A DNA stretch of 64,000 bases from Ascidia mentula (Eukaryota > Chordata > Ascidiacea > Phlebobranchia > Ascidiidae), in contig OX387197.1 of assembly GCA_947561715.1 (NCBI GenBank), forward strand, positions 811,001 to 875,000, in the 5' to 3' direction. Below are positions 17,888-63,046 of the stretch, piece after piece. Position numbers and translations under genes: made by a program. A model generated the notes under the pieces. It was not told the DNA's origin and ran no database searches. It worked only from the letters and a program-made list of their open reading frames with translations. Each line of letters starts with the position of its first letter. Position 1 is the stretch's first letter.

Positions 17888-20800
17888 TTAAACAGCAACA
17901 ACAGTCGCCCAGTTAACTGGTTCGTCAAGATCAAAAGCATGTGTCCAGACATCTGAGGTTGGATCGTAAACTTCAACTGATGTGAGTCCTTCACCCCGGT
18001 TCCTATAAAACAAACATGATACAGTTTCATGAATCAGACACACAACAAACACAGGCAAGTTTTTCTACAACATTTTGTCGTCAGTATTTTATAAGTTTAC
18101 TCACTAAACCGTTTGAAAACAAACAAAATAACGCACACTCGTGTAACTGGAATCGATAAAACGGGAAACAGTGGACTATAGTGACGTCATAATAGCAATT
18201 CTTACCATTCACCCACAACATAAATCCTCCCATCAATAACACAAGCAGAGTGATGGCAACGAGGGTTTAGGAGAGGAGAAACATATTTCCATTTGTTGAC
18301 TCCAGGTTCGTATTCTTCAACTGTTCGCAGGGAGCCACGATCCCAACCTCCTGTCAGATTTAAAGTAAAACTTTTTATTGTTTTTAGGTTAATACTTTAT
18401 AGTTATATCTACCAGTTTTTGTGTTTAGGATTCTTTTCAGGAAACTCCATTATATTTATCACGTGATACATTTACCGGTGACGAATATGGATTTGTATTT
18501 TATGAAATTTACACAAAAACCACTTCCTGTTAATTTTATTACTTAACTTTTCATCACTAACCAATTGCATAGATCTTCCCTTTAATTTCTTCACATGCGA
18601 AACGACATCTTGCTTCATTGAGAGAAGCGATTCTTGTGGAGGTTCCAACACGAACATCGCGGAATTCACATGATTGTAAGAGTTGTCCGCCATCATCCCA
18701 TCCGCCCACAGAAACCAAAACATCTAAAGAAATTTCCAAATCGCTTGTGTTAATATTGATTGTGACGTCATATTACGATTATGTTGTAATGTTACGTAAC
18801 AAGCAATGACGTAAGCTCTGCGTTTCTTAACGTAAAAATAAGAGATCAGATTTAAATCAATGTTTACAATAAAGTTAAGTAATATAACGGTTGATATGCA
18901 TTCATCAAAGAACTCAGTAAATCTGCAAATAATTATTTTACACAATGCTGATTTTTTACTAAAAGTTCATGAAGTTGAGTGACGTCATCAGTAATTTGTG
19001 ACCAAAGTGATTAAAAAGGTTTTACTTTGTAAAAAAAACACATAATTTTCCTGTAATTTTTGTAGGTTTAAGGTCAGTATTTCTCAATATTTTCATGTCA
19101 CAGAATATTTCTGTCCAATTAAATTTCTATGACCTCAGGTTGAAGCAAACAGCTTGTGAGTTAACATGGAACATTTGTGTGGATTAAGTGAGTGAATATT
19201 GTTGGGGTGAAAAGTTTAAACTGACTGATTTACATCTGGGTCCAGTAATGGGATTATTCTTTCACACAAATGAACTCAAACATATTCTTACTGTCAATTG
19301 AACACATTCCATGTCCATATCTTGGTTGTAACATGTCAAAGCCTTTTCTCCATATGCCTTCATTGATGAAATAAAGTAAACTTGATGAAAATCGTTTGTT
19401 ATCTCCACCTTGTCCCCCGGTCAGGTATATGACATCTACAACATGCATTTAATAAGATCCAGGTTGTGTAACAATTATCTAAACTATTGCTTTTTAGACT
19501 TTTTGACCTCAATTAAACGTTCACAATTACATTCCTCCTTCTTGACTAAATGCAGCAGTAATAAATGTAGTTTTGACAAGAAGTTTGGTTGAAGCACATT
19601 ATGTAACTACACTGTAAATTTTACACTTCAAACTTAAATCGTTGGTGCCAAGTTTTCAGAATCACCGAAGGGGAAGGGGGGCAGCCCCACCGTGATGTCA
19701 TAACCAATGTTGGCTTAATTGGGGAGTCTAAAATTTTGGGAATAATCCCTACATTTTTCAATGCTAAATTAAGCTTTACTTGGTTGAGCTTTAGAAAAGA
19801 TGAAAATCTATGTTTGCGCTAATAACACCAAATGCCAGTTTGAGCTATGGCGGTTTGAGCAATTGGCATTACTTTATGCAAATCTCTAATGCAAGGTTTT
19901 GAGGTGGTACAAGCACTGTAGTTTTTCTTCTTCAGAAGGACTTCAATAAATTTGGTGTCACAAAATGATTAAATGCGTATTTATGTATTTAAGAAAATGT
20001 ACAAACAAAAGCTGTTTTGCATACGGACTTGGCACTACTTAGTTTTTGTTGTAACGTTGCAAGAATGTTTACTTAAGTTACAGCAACCAACCTCCAACAA
20101 CAGCAGATGCAGTAGAACTTCGACCTTCCAACAAATCAGTAATTTTTACCCAGTTTTTACTTTCCTCCAAATTCAACATCTCACAACTTTGTGTTGGACC
20201 ATCTCCACCCATTACATAAACATTTTCACCAAATTTGGCTGAAGTTGATTTCACTCTGTCTGTGATCATTTTCTAAACAAATTTAGATGATGATGTAACA
20301 AATCATTAAGGCAAAGTGATTTACATAATTCACTAAATAACAGATAATGTCTATCTTAAAACCAGTGACACCAACACCAAAAGGTTTTGGCTCGAATATT
20401 GGTTGTGGTGTCATAAAATATTGCAGGAAAAAATGTAATAGAAGTAAGAAAAGTGCAGACAATATTGTTTTTATGTAATTTAGCTTAGAAACCAATATTG
20501 TGTAATTTGTTCCTGACAAATTGTGACGTTTGTAGTTTACTAAACATTTTATGTCCTGCATAATTTACTGCAGAGTTTTATTGCTTCCAGAAGCAAATAC
20601 CAAGTATATGAAACAAACCCATGGTTAAATAAGCAAACCATATGACAGCAAGCAATGTACATACTGGGTAATGTTCATGCTGTTTTGTGGTAACATTCCA
20701 TTTCATACAATCTCGTTTTGATTTATTGCCACCAATGAGAAGAAATCCTGACAAATCTGCAACATAAACATTACTTGTTATGGTTTTTGTTTGTGTAAAA

Positions 20801-23800
20801 TAAATTCTTATGGTGATAACAATGGTAACATATTTCCTAATTTGACCAATACTAACTGTTTTTTAAATGAGTCTATTTTTAATGAAGATACTATTTGTAG
20901 GTTGTGGTCTTAAAGTGACATCAGTATTTCTAAATACTTGTTGGTGAAGCACATCTTTGCATACCAATCAGTGTATATTTAGGTAGGTATTCGATCACAG
21001 TCTAACATATAGTAACTACTTGGTTGTTTACTGTACCTAGACTTGCAGATGTCACACTATATTGTTGTGCATAGTCAAGTACTTGCCATGTGCAAAGGTT
21101 CAGTGAAGCTTAAAGTTATGGGAGAATAATTTCTATGAGGGTTGGTGTAAATATGGTGGATGTAACATATTGTTGTGAATATTGAACAAATCTTGCACCT
21201 TTTTTAATGGGACTTGCTTTTCCACTTGTTCCTGGTTCATCATATTGTTTTAATGCAGCATCCATAACTGCATTGCTGCACTCTAAGTTAATTCTTACAA
21301 GAGGCTGAAAATAGATGAATCTTTAGACTAATTACAAGCAAACTAACTTAAACAAATTTACTTCATTTTTAATTGTGGTTGCAACAAACTGAGTGGAAAT
21401 AGATGAAAGATCAAGTTTTGAGAAAAGATTCACAAACAAATCCTCTCGATGGGAAGGATTGAAATTGACCCATCGAACCATTCCAGTAAAAACAGCTTCT
21501 TCCATCTACATTTAACAACTAATATGTAATAACAAAACAAGTAGTGATGTGTGAAAATCTTGGGAGTTGACAACATAGAAACGCCAAATCTAATATGCAT
21601 TTTTGGAAGAAGTTTCAAACACAGAGTTTTTTGCACTAACAAAGTATTGATGATCAGCACAGCAATGTTTTAAGTGTCAGCTAAAAATATCCTGAATATT
21701 AGTTTAGACTTTTCTACAGAAAGCAAGTACATGTTTGAATATTATAAAGAGATTGCTGTCATCATTCATTGCATTTGTATCACATTCAACATTTTGTTCA
21801 CATATTAGTTTTGTTTTTGTATTTTACTTTCACCTTGCAATACATCTTGCTGCCTTACACATGTAATGGAAAAATTATAGCCAGATAACCATGCATCAGG
21901 AATCAATGATAATTACCCCTTTGTTTCTCTGTTTGATGATTGCAGACATATCACCAACATCAAGTTGCATGAAATCATCATGTTGTACAACTGTTGCAAT
22001 GTTATCAACAATCATTTGGTTTGTTTTCTTTTCCACATCAGCAAGATTGTATCGAGTTGCATAAGCTCTTAGCTTCAAACAATTGTCGGTTGAAATCATT
22101 TCAAGGATGACTCGACAACAAAATGACTTCAATTCTAAAAAAACAAACCATGTTATTCCAAATTTAATTGCAGATATTTCAGTTAAGTATGAATCGAACA
22201 ATTAGTGATGTTCCCAGTTCCAAATTATCCGGCCCGGCCGGATCCGGATAGTTACCAATCAATTCCGGCCGGATAATTTGGATCCGGCAGTTTGTTAACA
22301 CCGATTCGTGTATTTTATCGGTATGGCAAAAATGTTTGATTGCCAAACAGAATGCTATGTTAAGGTTAGCTTATCATGAGTGGAACAAATAAACGTGGGT
22401 ATTTATTAATATGGTATAACACGTCACGAAAAACCTTAATAACAAATAACAGAAAAATCTTACGTCGGCGAGTATTACAGACTGGGTCCCAATAACGAGT
22501 AATTTGCGAAATGTTTGTGCGTTTTTAGGACGAAAATGCTTTCCCAACTATCCGGTAAAATTAAGTGTATTATCCGGCCGGGTCTGGGTATTGAAAATTG
22601 GTCAATATCCGGCCGGGTACGGGTACCTGGATCCGGCGCAACACATCACTACGAACAATATATGCCAGATATTGGCACCCAAAGCTGCTATTAGTGCTAA
22701 GAAATATCCTGGGTGGTAAATGATTTTTTTATGGCTTGTGGAAGCAAATGTTTAAATGTTGTGATGCTGAAACTTTTTATCAATGTGATGACTTAATACT
22801 TTTCTCTAGTAACCATGCTGTCTTACTTTAATACATTTTAAGAATGTTCAAATGGGATTTTGTTATCATTGTGGATGTATGGTTCACATAGCAATTAATA
22901 TTTACAAAGCTTTCACGTCACCACTCTATAGACTAAGGTATGGAAGTCTACCCAGTGAGATTGTATAAGTTACACTGGTGTGCACAAACAAACTTCCAGA
23001 CACTATGAATAGTCAAAACAGTGAGCATTGTCAATGGATCTAGATATGCAGGTTAATGCAAATATTGCTTGCCGGAGAGGGTCAACTATACAAAACCATT
23101 TACACAACTTTATCCAGTCATCCCATCAGAACAATATTTAAAGCAACCAATCCACCCCTTATATTCATTGCACACTCTAAAGGTATTAGGTACACCATGA
23201 ATCCATGTTTGACACAACGACCATCCTGTACACCCACACAAGCACAATCAAGTTACGTCAGTCACTTACATCCTGCTGTTACAACATTTAATAAATGTCA
23301 CATTAAGTTGGACGGACTAAAACCTGTTTTTCACACACTGAAACATGCGGAGCCACCTGGAATATGTTTGAGTGCTTATTACAAGGTGATACCACAGTAC
23401 AAATTTTTGAGCAAAAACCATAATGCACAGTTGCTATTCATGAAGCAACCATCATAGAGTTTGGACAAATCCAATAGGCTTCATAGTTAGGTCTGAACAT
23501 TTCCTTTTTGAGTTGAATTTTTGTGTCTTCACTGCATTCGACCAAGGGTTTCAATATGGTTCACTGCACAGTTTTAAAAATGAAAATTCTGCAGGACCAA
23601 AGACAATTATCCCTGTTTCTATTTTGTATATATACCTGTTTGTAGAAGTTGCAGAAAGTATTTGTGCCATTTTAAGGCATATTTATAAAAATGTTTCATT
23701 ATCACTGTCAAACATTGTACAGAAGATTAAGATGATAACTCTCTTGGAATTTTCAAATTACGCTGGTTGTACAGGATGTGTTAAACCACCTAATCACATA

Positions 23801-25004
23801 TGTGATGTTTGCATACCTTCCATCTGTGTATAATCAGCATCTTCCAACACTTCCAACACATTTGTCTCTGTTATTTCAATATCACCAGTGTAAATATAAT
23901 CCAATACACTTTCCAGTCTTTTTGGTGGAATATTGTCAACCTTGATAAAATCTGAGCATTTCTCGCGCATCTGTAAGAAAACAAAGTTAATCAATCACAA
24001 CAAACACAACCCACAACCAATCAAATATTTCTATACATGGAAATATTACATACTAAGTATTAAGTGTCAACATGTGTGAGGGAAAGTGGTTAAACATGAT
24101 GGTGGCAAATGTTAAAATACAACAAATAATCTTCACATGGATGAAGAAATAATAAACAATTATACCATCAACAATGACAAGTGTTTTGTGTCACAAAACT
24201 CAGTTATGTCAGGATTATTAAGAAACATTGCATCTCCATATAATATTTCACATCAAATGTTGTCAGTCCGCAAGTGAAAAGTTTGAGAACCACTAAATGT
24301 TACATATATTCTTTATGTATGACATATTTAACAAATACCCAGTTTTGCATTTTGGTAAGATAATATTTTAACGTAGGACACTATTAATAACTGTAATAAT
24401 ATTACATAGCTGAAAATGACAGACAAATTGGTACAATGTCAGTGTTAAAGTTTTAATCAACAATGTTTTACAGCCACAGGTATGTGTTGATTTTATACTG
24501 GTCACCTACGTTTATTATTTCACGTCAAAAGGATTTCTTCTGGTGCGAAATGCCTACTTTTTAAAAATGTATATTTGTTGACAAAATATTTTAACCAAAG
24601 TCAAGACATTATTAATTACTGAGATGTTGTATATTGCTTTAAATTAGAGACAAATTGCTACTACTGCAGTGTATTATTTGTACGCGGTTGTGGCAAAAGT
24701 ATTTAAAATGCCATTTCCTAAATGTGTAAAGCAATGTTTCAGTATAGTAAAATATTTTAAATACTTACCTCAACACCAAGTAAAGCATTAAAATAATCTG
24801 ACATAGAACAAACAACAGCATCATGTATTGAATAGTTTTCTCCTTGGGAACAAAGTGTTCTGTTGCAAAATCGTTTTGTTTCTTTTCTGTCACTAAAACA
24901 TCAATAGTTTAACTTCAGTAAATCTCCATAAACTAAACTTACTTGTTTAAAAAATTCATCACTTTCTGGTGATGCAAGTTTATTTCTTCTTGTGTTCGCT
25001 TCAT
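17888..25004 (-). CDS. BTB-BACK-Kelch protein K2, complete (548 aa)
   Basis: Twelve coding exons: 25004-24943, 24892-24769, 23970-23817, 22134-21917, 21505-21362, 21304-21199, 20756-20665, 20272-20092, 19435-19292, 18723-18562, 18350-18206 and 18002-17888. They sum to 1647 nt with one stop. Approximate domains: BTB 25-120, BACK 125-230, six kelch blades 270-548, marked by LIGG, VMGG, LTGG, SVGG, AIGG and VVGE. The last doublet is GE rather than GG, a local departure. Kelch consensus Trp and Arg positions are present in most blades. Inferred role: substrate adaptor of a CUL3 ubiquitin ligase, cytoplasmic (no signal peptide or membrane segment seen). Recognition-loop residues differ from the other copies: Tyr after QPR, CRF after Ala-Arg in exon 10, NW near the C terminus. 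A 449-bp hAT-like element sits in intron 3. No poly(A) signal was found close to the stop. Confidence 0.9.
22203..22651. mobile_element. Non-autonomous hAT-like element in K2 intron 3
   Basis: A 449-bp insertion with ends TAGTGATGT and ACATCACTA (inverted) and a perfect 8-base target repeat CGAACAAT at 22195-22202 and 22652-22659. The undisturbed site is present in K4 near 60690 and in K1 near 2475. Eight-base targets and this terminal motif are typical of hAT transposons. No transposase frame is present. Internal sequence is rich in CCGGCCGG and ATCCGG motifs arranged in both orientations near the ends. Confidence 0.9.
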
Positions 25005-25819: not shown

Positions 25820-28800
25820 TCGGATTTAAATAAAACTTCATATTTTGGGACGAACGATGATTTTAACGTTGATATCAACAACGAAATTTCAACGGAAACT
25901 CCTCCATCCAACGCCGATGATTTAATTTCGTTTGCCGACGATTTCGTGTCAGGAAGTCCATCGTCATTAACATTTGACAACTACGCAGGTTTGGAATTTA
26001 AACATTGCTTGTATGAAACTATATGTTGTCATTGTATTGATTTCATGTAAGTGTTGTTGCATAATACTTTTATCAAAAACAACAAAATTTTCTTTTACAT
26101 TTCTTTGTCCTTTCAGACGCCGAACGGGGTTCAAAATCTGCTGAATCAATGTTGCCTGCGTGGGTGACTAAGCATTTATCAAGTGATGACTCAGCATTAC
26201 TCAGCAGTAAACCTTCTCCAGCAATTGGAAAGTGGGGGGACAAACTTCACAAGGAAAAGGTTTCAGTTTTCAAATGTTTTCTTTCGATGCTTATTTGATA
26301 TTTGGTTTCACGTTCACTTTATGATGATTTCTATGTTTCAAGTTGTCGTAAAAGCTTATTTCTTTGAAGATTTGTGAAGAAATTGAGAATCTTGCCCAGG
26401 TTCGAGATTTACTTTCCACTGTCAGTTCGTACGATGATGAGAGCGTGGTTTCAGAACTCTGTCATGATATTGATCTTGGTGAGTGTTGTATCAACTTTTA
26501 TGATACCGTTTCACATGATGAACCTTCATTATGTGTAACCTTTGTTATGATACAGTTACATACGATTCACTCAAACAGAGCAAAAGTTTACATGAAAGCT
26601 TCTTGTGATGTAACAGTAGGTTAATCACAGATATATTTGCATCAACAATTATATTTTTATTCCAAGAAGAGAAAATTCATCCCCCAAGCGATGGAACTCC
26701 GGTGAACACCAATTTCTCCGATGAAGACGAAGAACACTTGTCATCCACGGAGGATCATCATCTTAACGCTACTTACACGAAAAACGATTTCATGAAACTC
26801 AAGAAAAATGAAAAACAAGAACTCGATTCAACTCAACTGAACAAGGAACTAAAAAACATCGATGATGAAGTTGGTGAAAAAAACTCAGATCGGATTTCAC
26901 AAAATACAGAAACATTTGAAGTTTCCAACGATGATTTAATAGATGAAAAGGAAGTTTCCCAAACAAACTTTGCCGTCGTCTCAAAGATTTTGGATGAAAA
27001 TGCTGCTTTGTGTAGAAAAATTGAAGAGGGTTTGGAACCGGTGGTTGTCGAACCAACAGTTTTTGCCCAAACTCCAGACATAACAAGCTCTTTTGAGCAT
27101 GTCGATATTCGAGCACTAATATTTTCAAAGTCACCGAATAAACCTGCTACAAGGGCAAGAAAAGATGACTCCATCAATCACTTTGACACTTCTAAAGTTA
27201 CGAACCAGGAAAATTCTGATGAAAATAAAATTGAAAAACATAAAACTGTGGAAACAGAGGAAGATCGATTGGAAAACATCACTGACATTTCAACACAAAA
27301 TGAAAATTCCCAAGGAGAAAATCAAGGAATCAACTCAGATTTAAACCAAGCTGGTGAAAATCAAATCACGGAGTCACGATCGATCACAACACGGAATAAA
27401 GAAGAATTAACAAATACTTCATCTGAAAGTATGAAAAAAACGTATGTCTCAAAATCAGTTTTCAACATTTACTTGAGTCCCCGGCGGGAAATCCCCTCCA
27501 GCCCCTCTGTATCCAAGGAAGAAGAGTTGGATGTTGTTACATCCAGGCTGGTGGAGGAAGTGATCTCTGCTGCAGAATCCTCCTGTGATGAAGACTCTGA
27601 AGAGGAGGTTGCTGAAATGTCATCGGTTACAAGCAGCACAGCAAGCGAAGAGTTTAACAAACTTCCACCAACAAATAATGATGAACAAAACCATAAACCA
27701 GACGACAAAACTCACCTGAAGCAAAAAACTGAAACGTCAGTTGGTGGTGAAAGTGTTATTTCTATGCAGAATGGACACATGCTGTCACCTAGTGACAACA
27801 AAGATTGTTCTGTTGAGGAAACAAAAGAAAAACACGTTTCCGATGTTGTTGCTAAAGATGAACAAGTTATCGATAACATTGTATCAGAGGATGAAAATAA
27901 TGAGACGTTGGTTGCCAATGACAACCTGAATAAGCCCCCAGATGAAGAAATATCTGAAAACAAAGAAAGTTCCTCCGTTCTGTTGACGCCAACCAGCAAG
28001 AAACAAGCAATACCTCCTGCGTTTGCCGAACTCCTCGATAGTTTACGGAAGAAAAGAACACTGAAACTCCCCATCAGTCCTCCGAAGACTCTTCAACTTA
28101 AAAAGAACTATGACCTGCCACATGGTGGTGCTGGAGAGTCTGGATATTCAACTGACGCAACTCTTAATTTCTTGGATAAAAATGGTGAATTTTGTTTGCG
28201 GGCCATGCACTTATTTAAAAGTTTTATTTATCGCCACGAGAACACATCCTAAAGTTCAAAAGCAAACCTGTGATGTGATTTGAAATGTTTTGTTGAAACT
28301 GATCAAGTTTAAACTGATTGTTGATAATTACCTGTAAGTATTTCTATGTTTGTGTTTACAGAGCAAAGTTTCGATAAAGATGAACTTGACCAAGAAACCA
28401 ACAACAATTACATCAATGGTAACCATGGTGATGCAACATGTGAATGTGAAAAAGCAAGCGAGGATTTGTTAGCTGTTTTCAACCACGCGCAAGATGTTTA
28501 CAACAAACAAAAGGTTACAAGTTCATCTTCTACATCAAACCTTGTAATTCTTAAGTATGGGAATCTCCCTGCAGTCTTTTGGGTAACAAATGCTTGGCAT
28601 CTGATTTTTTTATTTTTCAGTATTGTTTTAACTCCTGTATGATCTTTTTAAGAGAAAAGTATTTTTTTCACAGTGCAATCCACTCAATGGAAATCATCAT
28701 GGAGTGAAAAAACTTGCTGGAACATTCCGATCGATCCAGCAGAAGATATCTAACCTGAATCTTTCAACTCATATTTCTATGGAAAGTTTAAACGATGACT

Positions 28801-28907
28801 CGCCGGTTGTTTCCCTGTTGCGAGAATACTCCGATCGTTTGGTAGATATCGTTCACACCCAAGTCACCAGTGGAAAGGTTTTGGAAAACCAAACAGACAC
28901 ACTGTGA
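25820..28907 (+). CDS. Large acidic, Ser-rich protein of unknown function
   Basis: Six exons join in phase: about 25820-25988, 26117-26259, 26370-26478, 26667-28184, 28362-28513 and 28674-28907, giving some 775 codons. The start is unsettled. The first segment reads well as protein (for example NADDLISFADDFVSG) but has a stop upstream and no Met or acceptor, so translation may begin upstream by an unseen exon, or at the Met in exon 2 (MLPAWVTKHLSSDD). The large fourth exon is rich in Glu, Asp, Ser and Asn and looks disordered. More ordered, possibly helical parts are KICEEIENLAQVRDLL near the front, FAELLDSLRKKRTL, and SLLREYSDRLVDIVHT at the C terminus. No catalytic motif, signal peptide or membrane segment is visible. 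I do not recognise the family. The gene runs divergently from K2; a second copy would start beyond the right edge. Confidence 0.72.
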
Positions 28908-29920: not shown

Positions 29921-30415
29921 TGTTACATCGCCACTAGTATGCTGTGTGTGTGTTTTCTATGTTGTGATTGTTTGACGTCATCTCAATGTGCCGTTGTTGC
30001 GTCACACGAACATTTGTCTTAGTGGAACACTGCTGCCTGCCACTGCTGTTGACTTGTTATTGTCTACCAGTGCTGCTGACCTATTGTAAATGTATTTTCT
30101 ATTTGAATAGCCTATTGCATAAAGATAATTTAAGTGCCATTGTTTTCCGCTGACTGGTTGATCTGAAACCTCCCGAAATTTGTGACTCTGGTGCTATAAT
30201 AATTCGGTAAGCAGAATTTGCTTATTTCTGTGTGTTTGTTTTTGGTCGCTAATTCTACAACTGTTTATGTAGAAACCGCAGCTCCGTCAGAATAAAGCGG
30301 ATTTGTTAGTTTTCTTGGAAGAGGGTTGCGCGTTACGACTATTGTAGAAAACCCCCTGTTACACTGTCCGGGCGCAGGAGTCACGCCCACCCGCACTGCC
30401 AAGGGCAGCGTAACA
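29921..30415 (+). repeat. 5' LTR of the BEL/Pao element
   Basis: 495 bp, matching the 3' LTR base for base as far as I could read. An AATAAA signal lies near 30291, and the boundary is fixed by the GTTAC target repeat on its left. Confidence 0.93.
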
Positions 30416-30563: not shown

Positions 30564-30584
30564 TGGGATTTATTACTATTTGAA

Positions 30585-31397: not shown

Positions 31398-31421
31398 TAT
31401 CAAGGTCCTGATCCCTTTCCG

Positions 31422-37738: not shown

Positions 37739-40700
37739 TTAAACAGCAACAACAGTCGAGGAATCAACTGGTTTGTCAAGATCAAAAGCATATGTCCAGA
37801 CATCTGAGGTTGGATCGTAAACTTCAACTGATGTGAGTCCTCCAACCAACATCCTATAAAACAAAACATGATACAGTTTCATGAATCAGGCACACAACAA
37901 ACACAGACGTAAGTTTTACTACAACATTTTGTCGTCAGTATTTTATAAGTTTGCTCACTAAACCGTTTGAAAGTAAACAAAATAACGCACACTCGTGTAA
38001 CTGGAATGAAAAAAACGGAAAACAGTGGACTATAGTGACGTCATAATAGCAATTCTTACCTCGTTCCACCCACAACATAAATCCTCCCATCAATAACACA
38101 AGCAGAGTGACAGCGACGAGGATTTAGGAGAGGAGAAACATATTTCCATTTGTTGACTCTAGGTTCGTATTCTTCAACTGTTTGCAGGGAGTGACCACAC
38201 CAACCTCCTGTCAGATTTAAATTAAAACTTTTTATTGTTTTTAGGTAAATACTTTATAGTTATATCTACCAGTTTGTATGTTTAGGATTCTTTTCAGGAA
38301 ACTCCATTATATTTATCACGTGATACATTTACCAGTGACGAATATGAATTTGTATTTTATAAAATTTACATAAAAACCACTTAATGTTAACTTTTCATCA
38401 CTAACCAATTGCATAGATCTTCCCTTTAATTTCTTCACATGCTAAATAACTTCTTGCTTTATTGAAAGAAGCGATTCTTGTGGAGGTTCCAACACGAACA
38501 TCACGGAATTCACATGATTGTAAGGGTTGTCTGCCATCACTCCCGCCCACAGAAAACAAAACATCTGAAGAAATTTCCAAATTGCTTGTGTTAATATTTA
38601 TTGTGACGTCATATTACGGTTATGTCGCAATGTTACGTAACAATCAATGAGGTAAGCTCTGCGTTTCTTCACGTAGAAATAAGCGATTAGATTTAAATCA
38701 ATATTTAGATTAAAGTTAAACAATATAACAGTTGATATTCATTCAGCAAAGAACTCAGTAAATCTGCAAATAATTATTTTACACAATGCAGATTTTTCTC
38801 TAAAGTTAATGAAGCAGGGTGACGTCATCGGTAGTTTGCGACCAAAGTAAGTGAAAAGGTTTTTACTTTTTTACTTTTTATGACCTCAGGTGGAAGCAAA
38901 CATCTTGTGGGTTTACATGGAATATTTGTGTGGATTAAGTGAGTGAATATTGTTGGGGTAAAAAAATTAAAACTGACTGATTTACACCTGGGTCCAGTCA
39001 TAGGAATTCTTTCATGTAAATGAACCCAGATATTGGAGCTGCAAACAGGTGTACACACTGTTTCAACCTGTAAGGTGTCATCAGTGTAGCTGGTGTGTAC
39101 ACCTGCCTGCAGCTCTAATGGACTATTATGGCACGCATATAACTCAGACATATTCTTACTGTCAATTGAACACATTCCATGTCCCCATCTTGGTTGTAAC
39201 ATGTCAAATCCTTTTCTCCATCTGCCTTCGTTGTCGACATAAAGTAAACTTGATGAAAATGGTCGATAATCTCCACCATGACCCCCGGTCAGGTATATGA
39301 CGTCTACAACGTGCATTTAATAAGATCAAGGTTGTATAACATTATCTAAAGTGTTACTTTTAATACATTTTGACCTCAATTAAACGTTCACAAATACATT
39401 ATTCTTACTTGACAAAATACAACAGCAATAAACGTAGTTTGGGTAAAAAGTTTGGTTGAAGCACATTATGGTACTACACTGTAAATTTTACACTTCCAAC
39501 TTAAATCGTTGGCGCCAAGTTTTTAGGGTAATCTACCTATATTTCGCTTCTAAATTAAAGTTTACTTGGTGGAGCTTTAAAAAAAATGAAAATCTAAGTT
39601 TGCAGTAATTACACGAAAATAGTGGTTTGAGTAATTACATTATGCCTTTATTGTGAGGTTTGTGAGGTTTTTGAGGTTGTACAAGCAATGTAGTTTTTCT
39701 ACTTTGGTAGGGCTTGAATAAGTTTGGTGTCACCAAAGGATTAAATGCTTATTTTTGTATTTAAGAAAATGTACAAACAAAAGCTGTTTTGCATACGGAC
39801 TTGGCGCCACTGCCTTAATATTTGTTGTAACGTTGTGAGAATGTTTAATTAGGTTAGAGCAACCAACCTCCAACTACAGACGAAGCAGCAAAACGTCGAT
39901 CTTCCAACAAATCAGCAATTTGTACCCAGTTTTTACTTTCCTCCAAATTCAACATCTCACAACTTTGTGTTGCACCATCTCCACCCATTACATAAACATT
40001 TTCACCAAATTTGACTGAAGTTGAGTTCTCTCTGTCTGTGATCATTTTCTAAACAAATTTAGATGATGATGACACAAATCATTAAGGCAAAGTGATTTAC
40101 ATGTTTCACTAAATAACAAAAAAATACCAATCTTAGCAACAGTAACACCAACACCAAAAGGTTTCGGCTCAAATATTGGTTGTGATGTCAGAAAATATTA
40201 TATGTAGGTAAAAATGTGATGGAAGTAATTAAAGTGCAGTAAATATTGTTTTTATTTAATTTAGCTTAGTAACCAATTTTGTGGAATTTGTTGCTAACAA
40301 ATTGTGACGAATCTAGTTTACTAAACATTATGTGTCCAGCATAATTTACTGAGTTTTATTGCTTTCAGAGGCAAATACCAAGTATATGAAAGAAACCCGT
40401 GGTCAAATAAGCAAAACGACATGCCAGCAAGCAATGTACATACTGGGTAATGTTCATGTTGTTTTGTGGTAACATTCCATTTCACACAATCTCGTTTTGA
40501 TTTATTGCCACCAATGAGAAGAAATCCTGACAAATCTGCAACATAAACATGGGTTGTTATGGTTTTGGTTTATGTAAAATAATTTCTGGTGATGATAACA
40601 ATGGTAGCATATTTCATAACCAATTCTTTTTTTAAATGGGTCCATTTCGATGAGGATGCTATTTGTAGGTTGTGGTCTTAAAGTGACATCAGTATTTCTA

Positions 40701-43700
40701 AATACTTGGTGAAGCAAATCTTTGCGTACTAATCAGTGTAGATTTAGTTTAAGTATCTGATCACAGTTTAACAAATAGTAACTTGTTGGTTGTTTACTGT
40801 ACCTAGACTTCTCACACTATATTATTGTACATGTCCAAGTAGTTGCCATGTGTAAAGGTTCAGTGAAGCTTTAAGTTATGGGAGAATAATTGCTATGAGG
40901 GTTGGTGTAAATATGGTGGATGTATCATATTGCTGTGAATATTGAATAAATCTTCCACCTTTCTTAACGGAACTTGCTTTTCCACTTGTTCCTGGTTCAT
41001 CATATTGTTTAAATGCAGCATCCATGACTGCATTGCTGCACTCTAAGTTAATTCTTACAAGAGGCTGAAAATAGATGAATCTTTAGACTAATTACAAGCA
41101 AACCAACTCCAATTTACTTCATTTCTAACTGTGGTTGCAACAAACTGAGTGGAAATAGATGAAAGATCAAGTTGTGAGAAAAGATTCACAAACAAATCCT
41201 CTCGATGGGAAGGATTGAAATTGACCCATCGAACCATTCCAGTAAAAACAGCTTCTTCCATCTACATTCAACAACTATGTAATAACAAGCTATGTGTTCC
41301 TTAAATATATAATTAAGAATGTTATCAAATAATGCACTAAATACTCCTTTATTTGAACATGCATTTTGTTACATCTACAATGAACAGTCTGGAAATGTTG
41401 TGATTTCTAAAAAATGTGATGCTGATGTTAAAAAATACACCATTTTGTTTAAGGTCAGTTTCTGTATGTGTAAGGTTATGCAATTTTTGAATTTTAAACA
41501 AATGCCAAAGTGAAACACAAAATGCCACCATATACCAGTATCCAAACCATTACAAATAAGGAATACAAATTACTCATAATTACCCCTTTCTTTTTTTGTT
41601 TGATGATTGCAGACATATCACCAACATCAAGTTGCAAGAAATCATCATGTTGTACAACTGTTGCAATGTTATCAACAATCATTTGGTTTGTTTTCTTTTC
41701 CACATCAGCAAGATTGTATCGAGTAGCATAAGCTCTTAACTTCAAACAGTTGTCGGTTGAAATCATTTCAAGGATGACTCGACAACAAAACGACTTCAAA
41801 TCTGAAAAAGCAAAACCACGTTATTCCAAATTTAATTGCAGATATTTCCGTTAAGTATGAATTGAACAATATATATCAGATATTGGCACCCAAAGCAAAA
41901 GAAAAAATCAAATTTCCATAAATGTTAATGATAACATATATTTGCACAATGCATCATCCCTTGTGAAAGCAGTGTAGCTAGGTAGTGGCCACATCCTAAG
42001 AAATATCCTTGGTCTCCCAGAGGACTGGTAAGTCATATTATGTTAAGCATTTATGTTTTGGTGTTTACAAATAAGCAGAAAATGGTGCAAATGATGTTTT
42101 TTGGGACTTGTGGAAGCAAATGTTTAAATGTTGTGATGCTGAAACATTTTATCAATGAGATTACTTGATACTTTTCTCTTACAGTCTGTAGTAACCATGC
42201 TGTCTTACTTTATTACAGTTTAAGAATGTTCAAATGGGATTTTGTTATCATTGTGAATGTATGGTTCCCATAGCAATTAATATTTACAAAGCTTTCAGTC
42301 ATCACTCTATAGACTAAGGTATGGAAGTCTACCCAGTGAGATTGTATAAGTTACACTGGTATGCACAAACAAAACTCCAGACACTATGAATAGTTAAAAC
42401 AGTGAGCGTTGTCAATGGATCTAGATAAGCAGGTTAATGCAAATATTGCTTGCCGGAGGGGGTCAACTATACAAAACCATTTACACAACTTTATCCAGTC
42501 ATCCCATCAGCACAATATTCAAAGCAACCAATCCACCCCTTATATTCATTGCACACTCTAAAGGTATTAGGTACACCATGAATCCATGTTTGACACAACT
42601 ACCATCCTGTACACCAACACAAGCACAATCAAGTTACGTCAGTCATTTACATTCTACTATTATAACGTTTAATGAACAGCACATTAAGTTGGATGGACAA
42701 AAACCTGTTTTTCACACAATGAAACATGCAGAGTCACCTGGAATATGTTTGAGTGCTTATTATAAGGTGATACTACAATACACGTCAACCACTTTTTGAA
42801 ACAACTCAGTCAAATTTTCCAGCAAAAACCGATAATGCACCGTTGCTATTCATAAAGCAACTATAATAGAGTTTGGACAAGTCCTATAGGGTTCATAGTT
42901 GGGTCTGAACATTTCCTTTTTAAGTTGATTTTTGTGTCTTCTCTACATTCGCCCTAAGGTTTCGTCGTGGTTCACTGCACAGTCATAAAATCAACATTAT
43001 GCAGGTCCAAAGACATTTTTTTCTTTTTTTTTGTGCCTATTTTATATACCTGTATGTAGCAGTTCTGTGAACTTTTTATTGCATAATACATATATCTAAA
43101 TTAAATAAATATCTACAAATCTGCGTTTTATTATGACTGTCGAACATTGCACAGAAGTGCATGCTTAAGTTGATTCAGGTGCAGATCAAATCTTACGAGA
43201 CAAAACACTTATACTCTGGCAAAAACATTTCCACAAATGTTGGCATTCTTTTTAATACAGGAAAGTGTAATGATTTAATTTGTTGTTGCTCATGGACAAA
43301 AAAAATTGCTGTTAGGATTTTAAAATCACTTTTTTTATGAGATTTGGTTTCAACAACAATATTTATGTGGATAACATTCTTGCATTGTCGAGTTATGCTG
43401 GATGTACAGGTTGTGTTAAACCACCTAATGACATATATGATGTTTGCATACCTTCTATCTGTGTATAATCAGCATCTTCCAACACTTCCAACACATTTTT
43501 CTCTGTTACTTCAATATCACCAGTGTAAATATAATCCAATACACTTTCCAGTCTTTTTGGTGGAATATTGTCAACCTTGATGAAGTTGGAATATTTCTCG
43601 CGCATCTATAAGAAAACAAAGTTAACCAATCACAACATACACAACCCACAACCAATCAAATATTTCTATACATGGAAATATTACATACTAAGTATTAAGT

Positions 43701-44476
43701 GTCAACATGTGTGAGTTGTGAAGTGTTGGAAGACGTCACACTTACATACGAATATATTCGGGTTCGCACGAATAATGTTTCTATTTATTCGGATTCGCAC
43801 AAACCTGAATCTTTTTTCATTTGGCACATCCCTACATGCAATATGGTGAAAAAAAATGTGAAGCAATAGTTGGCAAACCCTGATTAAGAAAATAAGAATT
43901 CAAACTGAAAGTCTTTAAATATGGATTGCCCCATGACCTCATATATATATATAATGCTATTACGAATATATACAAGTAAGTATACATGTTACAAATGTTG
44001 TTACAACTGTGACAAATGATAAAAATAAACAAAAATAGCTTTTGGCAACAAAATATTTTAATAAAAGTCAAGACATTATCAATTATTGAGACAATATTAG
44101 ATATGAACACAGTTAAAATATAGACAAATTGCTATTACTACAATGTCACTGTTAATACTCGTTATTTCAAAAGTATTTTCATGCAATGTCTCAAACATGT
44201 ACACTGATGTATCAGTATATTTATATTTGAAAAATTTACCTCAACACCAAGTAAAGCATCAAAATAATCTGACATAGAACAAACAACAGCATCATGAATT
44301 GAATAGTTTTCTCCTTGGGAACAAAGTGTTCTGTTGCAAAATCGTTTTGTTTCTTTTCTGTCACTAAAACATCAATAGTTTAACTTCAGTAAATCTCCAT
44401 AAAATTAAACTTACTTGTTTAAAAAATTCATCACTTTCTGGTGATGCAAGTTTATTTCTTCTTGTGTTCGCTTCAT
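37739..44476 (-). CDS. BTB-BACK-Kelch protein K3, complete (548 aa)
   Basis: Twelve coding exons: 44476-44415, 44363-44240, 43605-43452, 41801-41584, 41261-41118, 41064-40959, 40535-40444, 40048-39868, 39303-39160, 38564-38406, 38207-38060 and 37853-37739. The sum is 1647 nt with no internal stop. Exon 10 is three bases shorter and exon 11 three bases longer than in K2; both in-frame changes fall in blade loops. BTB, BACK and six kelch blades are all present. Copy-specific loop residues are NK after the first GG, RF after Arg in exon 8, Trp after QPR in exon 9, SYL in exon 10, WCGHSLQ after the fifth GG and DS near the end. BTB/BACK exons match K1 best, while intron 8 matches K2 and intron 7 matches K4. 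The BEL/Pao element ends about 680 bp beyond the stop codon. Inferred CUL3-ligase adaptor of unknown substrate. Confidence 0.9.
39032..39119. mobile_element. Short inverted-repeat element in K3 intron 9
   Basis: Near-perfect inverted repeats of about 27 bp (outer parts GAGCTGCA ... TGCAGCTC, inner AGGTGTACACAC ... GTGTGTACACCT) around a 34-bp centre. K1, K2 and K4 lack it. AACCCAGA on the left and AACTCAGA on the right may be an 8-base target repeat with one change, which would place the true ends slightly outside the inverted repeats. Confidence 0.6.
43733..43835. mobile_element. hAT-like short element fragment in K3 intron 2
   Basis: Counterpart of the K1 fragment at the same intron position, without the left-hand duplication. 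K2 and K4 lack it, so it marks the K1/K3 branch over this part of the gene. Confidence 0.5.
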
Positions 44477-52266: not shown

Positions 52267-52922
52267 AAGTCATCTTATTAAGAACCCAAGGTGTTTGTGT
52301 GTTATTGATACCCTCGATTTGATAGAGCACGCCAAGGCAAGCATTTTTGGTGCTAAGTGCTGCTTGGTTGAGTTGAAACTTCTCCATCGTATTGGCGTTA
52401 GGTCCGAACCATGTAACGAACACAAGATTGCTCACCGTGGCAGAAGCAAACTTGCCCCAGCACATAAACACGGCAAGTCTGCAACGGAAAAAAGGTTACT
52501 GCTGCAGAAAATGGCTGCCCAATTGCCGTCCAAACGGTCGTATCGGATTTTCAAATGAAACATGATAGAAATTGGTACAAACTTATTTAAGGTAAAAATC
52601 CCTACATCACAACTCAATTTACATATTATCGAATAACAAACAACTAAATACATATCTCACCAAACCTGCAGCTGGTGTCCGTGAATTCGGCCACCAAATC
52701 CTTGAATGGATCTGCGCTGCTATTCTCCAGTTTTTTGTCAACTACCACAGTCTTTCCGCTGAGTCGCATTGTAAAGCCTCTATAAGTATCATTCCTTTTG
52801 ATGTCTTGGCACAGAGCTATGATCGCAGGGTCTATAGCGAAGGTTGAAGCCATGATGATTGATGAGTCGGTATATAGCGTTTAGACTGTGAGAAATGGTA
52901 CAAATTTATGAATGCCGGGCGC

Positions 52923-52930
52923 TATTTAAA
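52923..52930 (-). promoter_or_regulatory. TATA-like box of the ADF/cofilin-like gene (B)
   Basis: Same TTTAAATA string, 70 bp upstream of the ATG at 52853. Confidence 0.4.
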
Positions 52931-56820: not shown

Positions 56821-59800
56821 TTAAACAGCAACAAAAGTCGCATAATCAACTGGTTTGTCAAGATCAAAAGCATGTGTCCAGACATCTGAGGTTGGATCGT
56901 AAACTTCAACTGATGTGAGTCCTCCACCCAAGTTCCTATAAAACAAACATGATACAGTTTCATGAATCAGACACACAACAAACACAGGTAAGTTTTTCTA
57001 CAACATTTTGTCGTCAGTATTTTATAAGTTTACTCACTAAACCGTTTGAAAGCAAACAAAATAACGCACACTCGTGTAACTGGAATCGATAAAACGGAAA
57101 ACAATGGACTATAGTGACGTCATAATAACAATTCTTACCGTCCACCCACAACATAAATCCTCCCATCAATAACACAAGCAGAGTGACGGCAACGAGTATT
57201 TAGGAGAGGAGAAACATATTTCCATTTGTTGACTCTAGGTTCGTATTCTTCAACTGTTTGCAGGATGCCACGACCACGACCTCCTGTCAGATTTAAAGTA
57301 AAACTTTTTATTGTTTTTAGGTTAATACTTTATAGTTATATCTACCAGTTTTTATGTTTAGGATTCTTTTCAGGAAACTCCATTATATTTATCACGTGAT
57401 ACATTTACCGGTGACGAATAAGAATTTGTATTTTATAAAATTTACACAAAAACCACTTCCTGTTAATTTTATAACTTTTCATCACTAACCAATCGCATAG
57501 ATCTTCCCTTTAATTTCTTCACATGCTAAACCCCATCTTGCTTCATTGAGAGAAGCGATTCTTGTGGAGGTTCCAACACGAACATCGCAGAATTCACATG
57601 ATTGTAAGAATTGTCCGCCATCATATCCGCCCACAGAAAACAAAACATCTGAAGAAATTTTCCAAATCGCTTGTGTTAATATTCATTGTGACGTCATATT
57701 ACGATTATGTTGTAATGTTACGTAACAAATGAGGTAAGCTATGCGTTTCTTAACGTACAAATAAGAGATCAGTTTTAAATCAACGTTTACAATAAAGTTA
57801 AATAATATAACGGTTGATATTCATGCAGCAAAGAACTCAGTAAATCTGCAACAAAATCTGCAAATAATTATGTTGCACAATGCAGATTTTTTACTAAAGT
57901 TTATGAAGCTAAGTGACGTCATCGGTAATTTGTGACCAAAGTAAGTAAAAAGGTTTTACTTTGTAAAAAAACACATAATTTTCATGCAGTTTTTGTAGGT
58001 TTTAGGTCAGTATTTCTCAATATTTTCATGTCACAGAATATTTCTATCCAATGAAATTTCTATGACCTCGGGTCGAAGCAAACAGCCTGTGGATTTACAT
58101 GAAACATTTGTGTGGATTAAGTGAGTGAATATTGTTGAGGTAAAAAGTTTAACTGACTGATTTACATCTGGGTCCAGTAATGGGATTATTCTTTCACACA
58201 AATGAACTCAGACATATTCTTACTGTCAATTGAACACATTCCATGTCCAAATCTTGGTTGTAACATGTCAAATCCTTTTCTCCAACTGCCATTGTTGACG
58301 GAATAAAGTAAACTTGATGAAAATGGTTGAACACCTCCACCTTGACCCCCGGTCAGGTATATGACCTCTACAACATGCATTTAATAAGATCCAGGTTGTG
58401 TAACAATTATCTAAACTATTGCTTTTGAGACATTTTGACCTTAATTAACTGTTTACAATTACATTCCTCTTACTTGACAAAATACAGAAATTAAGCTGCT
58501 GCTAAATGCTAAGTTGAGGTTTATTTGGTGGAGCTTTAAAAAAGATGAAAATCCGTGTTTGCGCTAATTACACCAAAACAGTAGCTTGAGACATCGCATT
58601 ACATTATGTAAATCTCTAATGCGTTACAGCAACCAACCTCCAACAACAGCAGATGCAGCAGAACGTCGACCTTCCGATAAATCAGCAATTTTTACCCAGT
58701 TTTTACGTTCTTCCAAATTCAACATCTCACAACTTTGTGTTGGACCTTCTCCACCCATTACATAAACATTTTCACCAAATTTGACTGAAGTTGAGTTCAC
58801 TCTGTCTGTGATCATTTTCTAAATAAATTTGGATGATGTTGAAGCAAATCATTAAAGCAAAGTGATTTACATAATTCACTAAATAACAAAAAAATACCAA
58901 TCTTAGCAACAGTAACACCAACATCAAAAGGTTTCGGATCGAATATTGTTTGTGGTGTCATAAAATATTTTATGCAGGAAAAAATGTGATGGAAGTAAAA
59001 AAAGTGCAGTAAATATTGTTTTTATGTCATTTAACAGATCTAGATTACCAAACATTTTGTGTTCTACATAATTTAGTTTTTGCTTCCAGAAAGTAAGAAC
59101 AAACCAGTGAATAGTTAAAAAAGCATGAAAACCATATGACAGCAAGCAATGTACATACTGGGTAATGTTCATGTTGTTTTGTGGTAACATTCCATTTCAT
59201 ACAATCTCGTTTGGAATTATCTCCACCAATGAGAAGAAATCCTGACAAATCTGAAACATAAACATTTGCTTGTTATGGTTTTGTTTGCTTAAAATTAATT
59301 CTTATGATGATAAAAATGGAAACATATTTCCTAATTTGACCAATTCTAATTGTTTTTTTAAATGAGTCCATTTTAATGAAGAGACTATTTGTAGGTTGTG
59401 GTCTTAAAGTGACATCAGTATTTCTAAATACTTGTTGGTGAAGCAAATCTTTGCATACTAATCAGTGTAGATTTAGTGTAAGTATTTGATCACAGTCTAA
59501 CAAATAGTAACTAGTTGGCTGTTTACTGTACCTAGACTTGCAGATCTCACACTATATTGTTGTGCATAGTCAAGTAGTTGCCATGTGCAAAGGTTCAGTG
59601 AAGCTTAAAGTTATGGGAGAATAATTTGTATGAGGGTTGGTGTAAATATGGTGGATGTAACAAATTGCTGTGAATATTGAACAAATGTTGCACCTTTTTT
59701 AATGGGACTTGCTTTTCCACTTGTTCCTGGTACATCATATTGTTTTAATACAGCATCCATGACTGCATTGCTGCACTCTAAGTTAATTCTTACAAGAGGC

Positions 59801-62800
59801 TGAAAATAATAAAACATTTTAACTCATTGGAAACAAATCAACCCCAAATAATTTACTTCATTTTTAATTGTGTTTGCAACAAACTGAGTGGAAATAGATG
59901 AAAGATCAAGTTGTGAGAAAAGATTTACAAACAAATCCTCTCGATGAGAAGGATTGAAATTGACCCATCGAACCATTCCAGTAAAAACAGCTTCTTCCAT
60001 CTACATTCAACAACTAATATGTAATAACAAAGTAAGTAGTGATGTGTGAAAAGCTTGGGAGTAGAAACGCCAAACCTAATATGCATATTTAGCAATTGTT
60101 TCGAACATAGAATTTTTGCAATAATGAAGTATTAATGATTAGCACAGCTATGTTTGAAATGTCAGCTTCAAAATATCCAGAATTTAGTTTTGGATTTTCT
60201 ATAGAAAGCAAGTACAAGTTTGAATAATATTATAAAGAGATTGCTGTCATCATTCATTGCATTTGTATCACATTCAACACTTTGTTCACATATTAGTTTT
60301 GTTTTTGTATTTTACTTTCACCTTGCAATATATCTTGCTGCCTTACTCATATAATGGAAAAATTAAAGCTTGAATAAACCTTCATCAGGAATTAATGATA
60401 ATTACCCCTTTGTTTCTCTGTTTGATGATTGCAGACATATCACCAACATCAAGTTGCATGAAATCATCATGTTGTACAATTGTTGCAATGTTATCAACAA
60501 TCATTTGGTTTGTTTTCTTTTCCACATCAGCAAGATTGTATCGAGTTGCATAAGCTCTTAGTTTCAAACAATTGTCGGTTGAAATCATTTCAAGGATGAC
60601 TCGACAACAAAATGACTTCAATTCTAAAAAAACAAACCACGTTATTCCAAATTTAATTGCAGATATTTCAGTTAAGTATGAATCGAACAATATATGCCAG
60701 ATATTGGCACCCAAAGCTGCTATTAGTGCTAAGAAATATCCTGGGTGGTAAATGATTTTTTTATGGCCTGTGGAAGCAAATGTTTAAATGTTGTGATGCT
60801 GAAACTTTTTATCAATGTGATGACTTAATACTTTTCTCTTACTGTCTCTAGTAACCATGCTGTCTTACTTTAATACATTTTAAGAATGTTCAAATGGGAT
60901 TTTGATATCATTGTGGATGTATGGTTCACATAGCAATTAATATTTACAAAGCTTTCACGTCATCACTCTATAGACTAAGGTATGGAAGTCTACCCAGTGA
61001 GATTGTATAAGTTACACTGGTGTGCACAAACAAAATTCCAGACACTATGAATAGTCAAAACAGTGAGCATTGTCAATGGATCTAGATATGCAGGTTAATG
61101 CAAATATTGCTTGCCGGAGAGGGTCAACTATACAAAACCATTTACACAACTTTATCCAGTAATCCCATCAGAACAATATTTAAAGCAACCAATCCACCCC
61201 TTATATTCATTGCACACTCTAAAGGTATTAGGTACACCATGAATCCATGTTTGACACAACTACCATCCTGTACACCCACACAAGCACAATCAAGTTACGT
61301 CAGTCACTTACATCCTGCTGTTACAACATTTAATAAATGTCACATTAAGTTGGACGGACTAAAACCTGTTTTTCACACACTGAAACATGCGGAGCCACCT
61401 GGAATATGTTTGAGTGCTTATTACAAGGTGATACCACAGTACAAATTTTTGAGCAAAAACCATAATGCACAGTTGCTATTCATGAAGCAACCATCATAGA
61501 GTTTGGACAAATCCAATAGGCTTCATAGTTAGGTCTGAACATTTCTTTTTTGAGTTGAATTTTTGTGTCTTCACTGCATTCGACCAAGGGTTTCAATATG
61601 GTTCACTGCACAGTTTTAAAAATGAAAATTCTGCAGGACCAAAGACAATTATCCCTGTTTTTATTTTTTATATATACCTGTTTGTAGAAGTTGCAGAAAG
61701 TATTTGTGCCATTTTAAGGCATATTTATAAAAATGTTTCATTATCACTGTCAAACATTGTACAGAAGCTTAAGATGATAACTCTCTTGGAATTTTCAAAT
61801 TACGCTGGTTGTACAGGATGTGTTAAACCACCTAATCACATATGTGATGTTTGCATACCTTCCATATGTGTATAATCAGCATCTTCCAACACTTCCAACA
61901 CATTTTTCTCTGTTATTTCAATATCACCAGTGTAAATATAATCCAATACACTTTCCAGTCTTTTTGGTGGAATATTGTCAACCTTGATGAAATCTGAGTA
62001 TTTCTCTCGCATCTATAAGTAAACAAAGTTAACCAATCACAACAAACACAACCCACAACCAATCAAATATTTCTATACATGGAAATATTACATACTAAGT
62101 ATTAAGTGTCCACATGTGTGTGGGAAAGTGGTTAAACATGATGGTGGCAAATGTTAAAATACAACAAATAACCTTTCTATGGATGAAGAAATAATAAACA
62201 ATTATACCATCAACAATGACAAGTGTTTTGTGTCACAAAACTCAGTTATGTCAGGATTATTAAGAAACATTGCATCTCCATATAATATTTCACATCAAAT
62301 GTTGTTAGTCCGCAAGTGAAAAGTTTGAGAACCACTAAATGTTACATATATTCTTTATGTATGACATATTTAACAAATACCCAGTTTTGCGTTTTGGTAA
62401 GATAATATTTTAACGTAGGACACTATTAATAACTGTAATAATATTACATAGCTGAAAATGACAGACAAATTGGTACAATGTCACTGTTAAAGTTTTAATC
62501 AACAATGTTTTACAGCCACAGGTATGTGTTGATTTTATACTGGTCACCTACGTTTATTATTTCACGTCAAAAGGATTTCTTCTGGTGCGAAATGCCTACT
62601 TTTTAAAAATGTATATTTGTTGACAAAATATTTTAACCAAAGTCAAGACATTATTAATTACTGAGATGTTGTATATTGCTTTAAATTAGAGACAAATTGC
62701 TACTACTGCAGTGTATTATTTGTACGCGGTTGTGGCAAAAGTATTTAAAATGCCATTTCCTAAATGTGTAAAGCAATGTTTCAGTATAGTAAAATATTTT

Positions 62801-63046
62801 AAATACTTACCTCAACACCAAGTAAAGCATTAAAATAATCTGACATAGAACAAACAACAGCATCATGTATTGAATAGTTTTCTCCTTGGGAACAAAGTTT
62901 TCTGTTGCAAAATCGTTTTGTTTCTTTTCTGTCACTGAAACATCAATAGTTTAACTTCAGTAAATCTCCATAAATTAAACTTACTTGTTTAAAAAATTCA
63001 TCACTTTCTGGTGATGCAAGTTTATTTCTTCTTGTGTTCGCTTCAT
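56821..63046 (-). CDS. BTB-BACK-Kelch protein K4, complete (547 aa)
   Basis: Twelve coding exons: 63046-62985, 62934-62811, 62012-61859, 60623-60406, 60000-59857, 59799-59694, 59250-59159, 58818-58638, 58367-58224, 57648-57490, 57283-57139 and 56935-56821. They sum to 1644 nt and are open throughout. Domain order is BTB, BACK, six kelch blades. Loop residues unique to this copy: DN after the first GG, RS after Arg in exon 8, Phe after QPR and GVQP after the third GG, WGL in exon 10, RGRGILQ after the fifth GG, and DY near the C terminus. BTB/BACK introns match K2, but intron 8 has the short K1-like form. It lacks the hAT-like element present at the same site in K2 and so gives the empty target. 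Inferred substrate adaptor of a cullin-3 ubiquitin ligase. Confidence 0.9.

Follow-up and report, generated by a model that had tools for sequence, protein, structure and literature searches.

Probable diversifying selection on the predicted substrate-binding face of a large KLHL-type gene family in the ascidian Ascidia mentula

The window analysed here is a 64,000-nucleotide stretch of chromosome 1 of the ascidian Ascidia mentula (C1:811001-875000; genome 195.8 Mb). Two matches to glycosyl hydrolase 6 (E 9e-6 and 1e-4) are consistent with a tunicate, as the enzyme is not known from other animals. The window carries four genes, K1-K4, all on the minus strand, each with 12 exons, an intact frame and the BTB-BACK-Kelch (KLHL) architecture. 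Each gene sits in a unit of roughly 19-20 kb, and the units are segmental duplicates of one another, 87-99% alike over the aligned pieces. Among 23 intact members of their family, a signal of positive selection is found in the predicted substrate-binding part of the protein and not in the predicted cullin-binding part.

The K genes and their family

Pfam places a BTB domain at residues 24-123 and a BACK domain at residues 132-231 of K4, with Kelch families in the C-terminal half. Only BTB, BACK and Kelch-type propeller families match; there is no F-box and no MATH domain. The 23-gene alignment has six GG motifs, one per blade (the second glycine is altered in a few copies), and parts of the K proteins align to six-blade KEAP1-derived proteins. 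As judged from sequence, the propeller has six blades, and the domains follow the KLHL order BTB-BACK-Kelch. At the BTB site of the CUL3-contact motif phi-x-E, 22 of 23 genes read MRE and one reads MSE. The domain architecture and this one motif suggest that the proteins bind CUL3. Cullin-family exons exist in the genome.

Copies were counted by searching the genome with a 73-residue BACK peptide and scoring all 146 candidates. Of the 111 matches that resulted, 71 have at least 90% amino-acid identity and no stop. Another 13 fall at 74-85%, a stop being present in one of these, and the last 27 are partial or more distant. The 71 exons at this identity show a large and apparently recent expansion. 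Chromosome 1 has 19 of them on the minus strand at 0.657-0.965 Mb and 33 on the plus strand at 1.19-1.785 Mb (52 in total at 0.657-1.785 Mb), 13 at 26.84-27.06 Mb and three elsewhere; three more are on C52. Sixty-five lie less than 2 Mb from an end of this 27.92 Mb chromosome, and chromosome ends are a usual home of fast-evolving families. Further BACK clusters, with 78-85% identity, were seen at C1:1009761-1086819 and C1:2250675-2267928. A BTB-Kelch array at C2:3.35-3.72 Mb, from which one sample was taken (L035), is a different BTB-Kelch family.

We read 26 genes: K1-K4 and one gene in each of the stretches L013-L034. Frames are intact in 23, although L033 lacks exons 1-2 in the stretch read. 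The other three are broken and were excluded: L017 by an in-frame stop, L026 by truncation and L027 by a frameshift. The top faces of the 23 intact genes are all different.

Variation and selection on the top face

An earlier note on this DNA had described K1-K4 as nearly identical in BTB and BACK, with changes clustered at two places in every blade, after the GG doublet and after a conserved arginine. The residue strings it quoted are present in the spliced translations. Mean pairwise amino-acid identity among K1-K4 is 96% for BTB and BACK. Within Kelch it is 46% in the top loops and 92% for the remaining residues. The exon 9 residue said to differ in all four genes does so (Cys/Tyr/Trp/Phe for K1/K2/K3/K4, alignment column 400), with codons TGT, TAT, TGG and TTT seen there. 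The clustering holds overall but not for every blade: VN follows the arginine of blade 1 in 16 genes out of the 23, and blade 2 varies after GG mostly at the first residue.

The 551 columns of the alignment were divided into the BTB-BACK-linker, the Kelch frame, the bottom a-b turns, the c-d loops and two top classes, namely the b-c loops that follow GG and the residue pair that follows the conserved arginine. These two classes make up the top face (50 columns), leaving 232 other Kelch columns. Of the 40 columns with the greatest variability, 30 lie on the top face (p=9e-28, or p=7e-19 when only Kelch is considered). All 18 Kelch columns with gaps are in loops after GG, and Gly, Asp, Arg, Tyr, Trp and Cys are enriched in hypervariable columns relative to the rest of Kelch. 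Diversity at codon positions 1, 2 and 3 is 0.32, 0.32 and 0.18 in one top class, 0.34, 0.38 and 0.17 in the other, and 0.05, 0.04 and 0.07 in the Kelch frame. In top codons, then, the diversity of positions 1 and 2 is roughly double that of position 3, a pattern that no other class shows.

By counting over all pairs of the 23 genes, the ratio of nonsynonymous to synonymous rates (dN/dS) is 2.61 on the top face (95% interval 1.72-4.36), 0.62 (0.42-0.92) in the other Kelch columns and 0.37 (0.27-0.50) in the BTB-BACK-linker; exons 1-5 alone give 0.24 (0.17-0.35). We also fitted a custom codon model by likelihood, in which the BTB exons, the BACK exons and every later exon had a tree of their own. 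The ratio in this model (omega) is 3.96 for the top face, 0.51 for the rest of Kelch and 0.32 for the ligase half, and twice the log-likelihood difference (2dlnL) between the top omega and omega 1 is 227.6. A second run used trees from introns plus codons other than the tested sites and left both rates free. For the top class it gave a synonymous rate (alpha) of 1.00 and a nonsynonymous rate (beta) of 5.43, and it rejected a neutral hotspot in which both rates are equal and free (2dlnL 72.8). In a site-by-site grid, 27 sites exceeded 0.9 for positive selection; 18 of these belong to the 50 top sites.

The codon-based check proposed in the earlier note gives 2.6-5.4 for the top face and 0.24-0.37 for BTB-BACK across 23 genes. 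Its claim that binding is being diversified, rather than drifting, is supported by pooled ratios above 1 on the predicted substrate face and below 1 in the rest of the propeller and the ligase half. Drift would apply if these were redundant duplicates decaying towards pseudogenes, with variation wherever the fold tolerates it. Three of the 26 genes read are indeed broken, and the loops of any propeller tolerate change. But drift leads to an omega of 1, and the observed 4 to 5 already contradicts relaxed constraint. The exposed c-d loops on the opposite side reach only 0.75, 23 of the 26 genes are intact, and none of the 71 BACK exons has a stop, though 5.3% of random changes there would create one. 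We consider such relaxation very unlikely.

Variable sites were mapped by sequence to the KEAP1 propeller. Thirteen KEAP1 residues (334, 363, 380, 382, 415, 483, 508, 525, 530, 555, 572, 577 and 602) are Nrf2-interacting or top-side ligand residues according to PMC12266349. Positions were transferred by blade-to-blade anchoring on GG and arginine, since a MAFFT alignment misplaced blades. To these thirteen we added six further ligand-face residues, 461, 462, 478, 509, 556 and 603. Mean diversity is 0.65 at the 19 equivalents and 0.14 at the 263 other Kelch columns (p=2e-12). The set holds 14 of the 20 most variable Kelch columns, and its dN/dS is 4.38 (2.65-8.97) against 0.78 (0.56-1.11) elsewhere in Kelch. 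The equivalents of S363, N382, G462 and F577 are not very variable (ranks 58-87 of 282). Variation is thus concentrated at ligand-face equivalents, as the earlier note expected.

A location on the bottom face, which the same note held would speak against it, is not what we see. The c-d loops there have a dN/dS of 0.75 (0.38-1.66). The bottom a-b turns give a ratio of 9 with a synonymous rate of only 0.0075; because that rate is almost nil, we do not read the ratio as selection. Amino-acid change in these turns is slow (rate 0.065, against 0.31 on top).

Errors of alignment, splicing or assembly could also create variable loops. Splice sites of exons 11/12 were adjusted in several genes, and the blade-6 loop crosses a splice junction whose exact acceptor is not fixed in some of them. 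The same pattern appears in exon 8 and among the KEAP1 equivalents, and the published assembly has a quality value (QV) of 64.9 (PMC11109543). An artefact is therefore extremely improbable.

Tempo, linkage and homogenisation

Top codons differ far more than the DNA around them. In the block of exon 10, intron 10 and exon 11, flank divergence runs from 1.5% to less than 8% over 253 pairs. Whatever the flank-divergence bin, the mean difference between top codons is 29-33% (Spearman 0.08, p=0.19), the bin below 2% holding 3 pairs only. The genes of L018 and L021 closely resemble each other along most of their length: introns 8 and 9 (first 150 bases) differ at 0/150 and 2/149 positions, and introns 10 and 11 at 5/202 and 3/195 (8/397 together); intron 1 differs at 8/41. 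Their top nucleotides in exons 10, 11 and 12 differ at 6/24, 10/30 and 5/21 (21/75).

Association between codons was assessed by permutation within groups at the 5% significance level, the groups being the minus-strand array and the plus-strand array plus dispersed copies. Significant association was found for 26% of 38 codon pairs within a loop (46% of 13 adjacent pairs). The share was 5% for the 39 pairs in two loops of one exon, 1% for the 106 in neighbouring blades and 6% for the 223 far apart; all three are at about or below chance, so linkage between loops or blades is not detectable. The within-loop association serves as the positive control for this test, a control that rests partly on exon 9. 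That exon gives a good part of the signal; without it, 6/28 within-loop and 5/10 adjacent pairs remain significant, and 2/34, 1/63 and 7/128 in the three more distant classes. Near-zero cross-exon distance correlations, over many pairs, had also suggested blade shuffling. We dropped this argument as proof because a split-half control within exons is also about 0-0.2, except for exons 6 and 9.

The gene frame is a mosaic. Between the two groups, introns 2, 8, 9 and 11 and exons 6 and 9 differ far more than within them. For BTB, for exons 7, 8, 10, 11 and 12, and for introns 1 and 10, similarity between groups equals that within them, and for BACK it nearly does. The comparison covered introns 1, 2, 5 and 8-11, of which intron 5 is ambiguous. 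A 24-nt loop is identical in L018 and L032, members of different groups. Such a mosaic of shared and differing segments is not easily produced by one tree and points to ectopic conversion or exchange of segments. As a separate observation, linker exon 6 differs strongly between groups in the 23 genes, as do exon 9 and several introns.

These data also suit a hotspot, in which targeted micro-conversion or hypermutation of loop codons makes the diversity and selection only filters it. The constant 29-33% difference whatever the flank divergence, the 21/75 against 8/397 differences in L018/L021, the restriction of linkage to within a loop and a raised counted synonymous rate at top codons of exons 10-12 all favour it. 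In its purely neutral version it is rejected by the second likelihood run (2dlnL 72.8; alpha 1.00), and third positions show only about half the diversity of positions 1 and 2. Among contrasts at the third base only, synonymous and nonsynonymous changes number 19:21 on the top face and 70:21 in the rest of Kelch, which shows that the effect on the amino acid counts. TGG among NNT codons at column 400 is a third-base change of amino acid, which speaks against pure NNY mutagenesis, the chemistry of diversity-generating retroelements. We regard the hotspot account as doubtful, with some weight left to it.

Several other elements were observed in the window (Table 1). A BEL/Pao-type long terminal repeat retrotransposon lies between K2 and K3; its 495-bp terminal repeats are 100% identical, so it looks very recently inserted. 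Fragments of a second retrotransposon lie inside duplicated units, the two copies lacking different internal parts. Frames matching Sulfotransfer_4 have been duplicated along with the Kelch units.

Table 1. Genes and other elements in the window (positions are those of the window)
Feature	Position	Strand	Remarks
K1, exons 1-9	81..5188	-	Exon matches; translation intact across window edge
K1, exons 1-9 singly	5188-5127, 5076-4953, 4315-4162, 2420-2203, 1902-1759, 1701-1596, 1159-1068, 675-495, 224-81	-	
K1, exons 10-12	In L010, directly left of window	-	Exon matches
K2	17888..25004	-	Complete; exon matches and intact translation
K2, exons 1-6	25004-24943, 24892-24769, 23970-23817, 22134-21917, 21505-21362, 21304-21199	-	
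K2, exons 7-12	20756-20665, 20272-20092, 19435-19292, 18723-18562, 18350-18206, 18002-17888	-	
K3	37739..44476	-	Complete; exon matches and intact translation
K3, exons 1-6	44476-44415, 44363-44240, 43605-43452, 41801-41584, 41261-41118, 41064-40959	-	
K3, exons 7-12	40535-40444, 40048-39868, 39303-39160, 38564-38406, 38207-38060, 37853-37739	-	
K4	56821..63046	-	Complete, 12 exons, 547 aa; single open frame, every intron GT-AG
K4, exons 1-6	63046-62985, 62934-62811, 62012-61859, 60623-60406, 60000-59857, 59799-59694	-	Exon 6 is the linker
K4, exons 7-12	59250-59159, 58818-58638, 58367-58224, 57648-57490, 57283-57139, 56935-56821	-	
K4, BTB and BACK exons 1-5 (constant ligase half)	59857..63046	-	dN/dS 0.24 across 23 genes
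K4, Kelch exons 7-12 with hypervariable top-face loops	56821..59250	-	23-gene alignment
Sulfotransfer_4 frames	7717-8097, 47039-47419	+	Match C-terminal part
Second retrotransposon fragments	10370-12179, 49445-52281		RVT_1, RNase H-like, integrase
Tandem repeat	14261-15187		Shifts register by about 37 bp; lies between K1 and K2
547-residue frame	Within 26609-29188	+	No Pfam match
Repeat	28908-29188		Encodes (I/M)ELCDV(I/N) copies; open on both strands
BEL/Pao-type retrotransposon	29921-37057		Pao peptidase, integrase

Interpretation and comparison with known systems

We read these genes as probable CUL3-RING adaptors of the KLHL type whose loops have been selected for different targets and whose frame has been converted ectopically (probability about 0.78). 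From KLHL biology, the near-constant BTB-BACK half would dimerise and dock CUL3, and the top face of the six-bladed Kelch propeller, formed in each blade by the post-GG loop and the two post-arginine residues, would grip the target. The dimeric adaptor would bring CUL3 to the bound target and lead to its ubiquitination. Ectopic gene conversion or unequal exchange may keep parts of the frame alike, and diversifying selection, together with shuffling of segments as large as a single loop or nearly so, may keep the top faces different. The outcome would be a germline library of binding faces on one common handle, in about 71 close copies, mostly on chromosome 1.

Several points weigh against this reading. 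The analysis covers 23 of the 71 members, drawn from the 40 best BACK DNA matches and the window genes, and the top-face classes were fixed after the translations had been looked at. The linker exon 6, which precedes the propeller, varies too: of the 40 most variable columns, 10 are not on the top face, and 8 of these belong to it. Among the 501 sites that are not in the top class, nine are included in the 27 that the grid called. Taken exon by exon, the top dN/dS excludes 1 only in exons 8, 11 and 12; it is 1.07 in exon 7, 1.79 (0.73-6.78) in exon 9 and 2.61 (0.90-8.25) in exon 10. In the KEAP1 mapping, only 13 of the 19 residues come from PMC12266349, and at 483, 530, 572 and 577 loop lengths differ and loop end columns were chosen; top positions without KEAP1 equivalence have a dN/dS of 1.73 (0.98-3.55). 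Lastly, the earlier note would have yielded to synonymous change as dense as the nonsynonymous at these codons, and here the methods part: likelihood does not raise the synonymous rate (alpha 1.00), but simple counting does in exons 10-12 (0.13-0.15 at top codons against 0.035-0.042 at neighbours). Path-averaging of codons hit more than once may explain part of this, and an extra rate of mutation or exchange at these top codons, added to selection, may be present.

As to what selects for different targets, we favour recognition of changing non-self targets, most likely intracellular parasites; we give this defence role roughly even odds and place reproduction second. Allorecognition is a further candidate. 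Ascidians are hermaphroditic, and some are self-sterile. Under a reproductive role the genes would mediate self/non-self recognition between gametes, as S-locus F-box proteins do, or be sperm adaptors in sexual conflict, as proposed for termite KLHL10. The layout here resembles a plant S-locus with segmental duplicates of 18-22 kb, an SFBB gene in each and suggested conversion (PMC12033343). One termite has 37 BTB-BACK-Kelch (KLHL10) genes against 10 in another, and the authors link these to spermatogenesis (PMC4348803). Our family lies near both ends of chromosome 1 and on C52, not at one locus, and we hold a reproductive role to be unlikely.

A stronger form of the selection reading is possible, and we offer it tentatively. 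The family could be an intracellular, germline-encoded combinatorial repertoire built on KLHL ligases, its loops assorted independently among some 70 genes. Loop-sized exchange or mutation, together with selection, would then renew the loops far faster than the adjacent introns. If true, this would be an antibody-like library whose output is degradation of the target. If the selection reading itself is true, the family is a ready-made system for studying how animals without adaptive immunity recognise changing targets. Its dozens of natural Kelch faces on one scaffold could likewise inform a KLHL binding code and the design of targeted degraders.

The nearest parallels, said to have been described by Thomas in 2006, come from Caenorhabditis and plants, in the form of F-box and MATH-BTB adaptor families. 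The C. elegans case of a positively selected adaptor family is quoted in PMC4334554. These too are large, recent families of ubiquitin-ligase adaptors with selection on the substrate-binding and not the cullin-binding domain, and they are proposed detectors of foreign proteins. Here, by contrast, a Kelch propeller sits on a BTB-BACK half, in a chordate, and selection is seen together with frame homogenisation and unlinked loops. As K4 has no F-box or MATH domain, the family is a parallel case and not a member of that type.

Genes of the KEAP1 type usually occur singly, are conserved and have fixed targets. The present family shares the domain order of KEAP1 and other KLHL proteins, and most of its strongly variable positions match KEAP1 ligand-face residues, yet it numbers 71 close copies whose faces diverge. 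Expansions of BTB-BACK-Kelch genes in single lineages are known: tunicate Klhl9/13, with 32 Klhl genes overall in Ciona robusta (PMC7517041), KLHL10 in the termite Zootermopsis (PMC4348803) and a further KLHL or Kelch expansion (PMC4265353). As far as consulted, the tunicate and termite accounts deal with gene numbers and phylogeny and do not report on selection at the binding face. The literature searched, which lacked most subscription journals, yielded no account of selection acting on the substrate face of any Kelch family.

Two further systems share some of these features. Plant SLF/SFBB genes are paralogous adaptors that jointly recognise non-self variants and occur as segmental duplicates with suggested gene conversion (PMC12033343); they are F-box genes at a single S-locus linked to an RNase, unlike K4, which has a BTB domain and no F-box. 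Zebrafish has nearly 400 NLRs, described in a paper that mentions gene conversion 22 times (PMC4852459). These form a very large family for innate recognition, but they recognise through LRRs, not Kelch repeats, and are not ubiquitin adaptors. The principle is thus already known from nematode and plant adaptors, as are KLHL expansions; what the present sequences would add is a version in a chordate on the Kelch propeller. If that is true, the selection pattern of nematode and plant F-box and MATH-BTB adaptors extends to Kelch propellers, with unlinked loops and a homogenised frame in addition.

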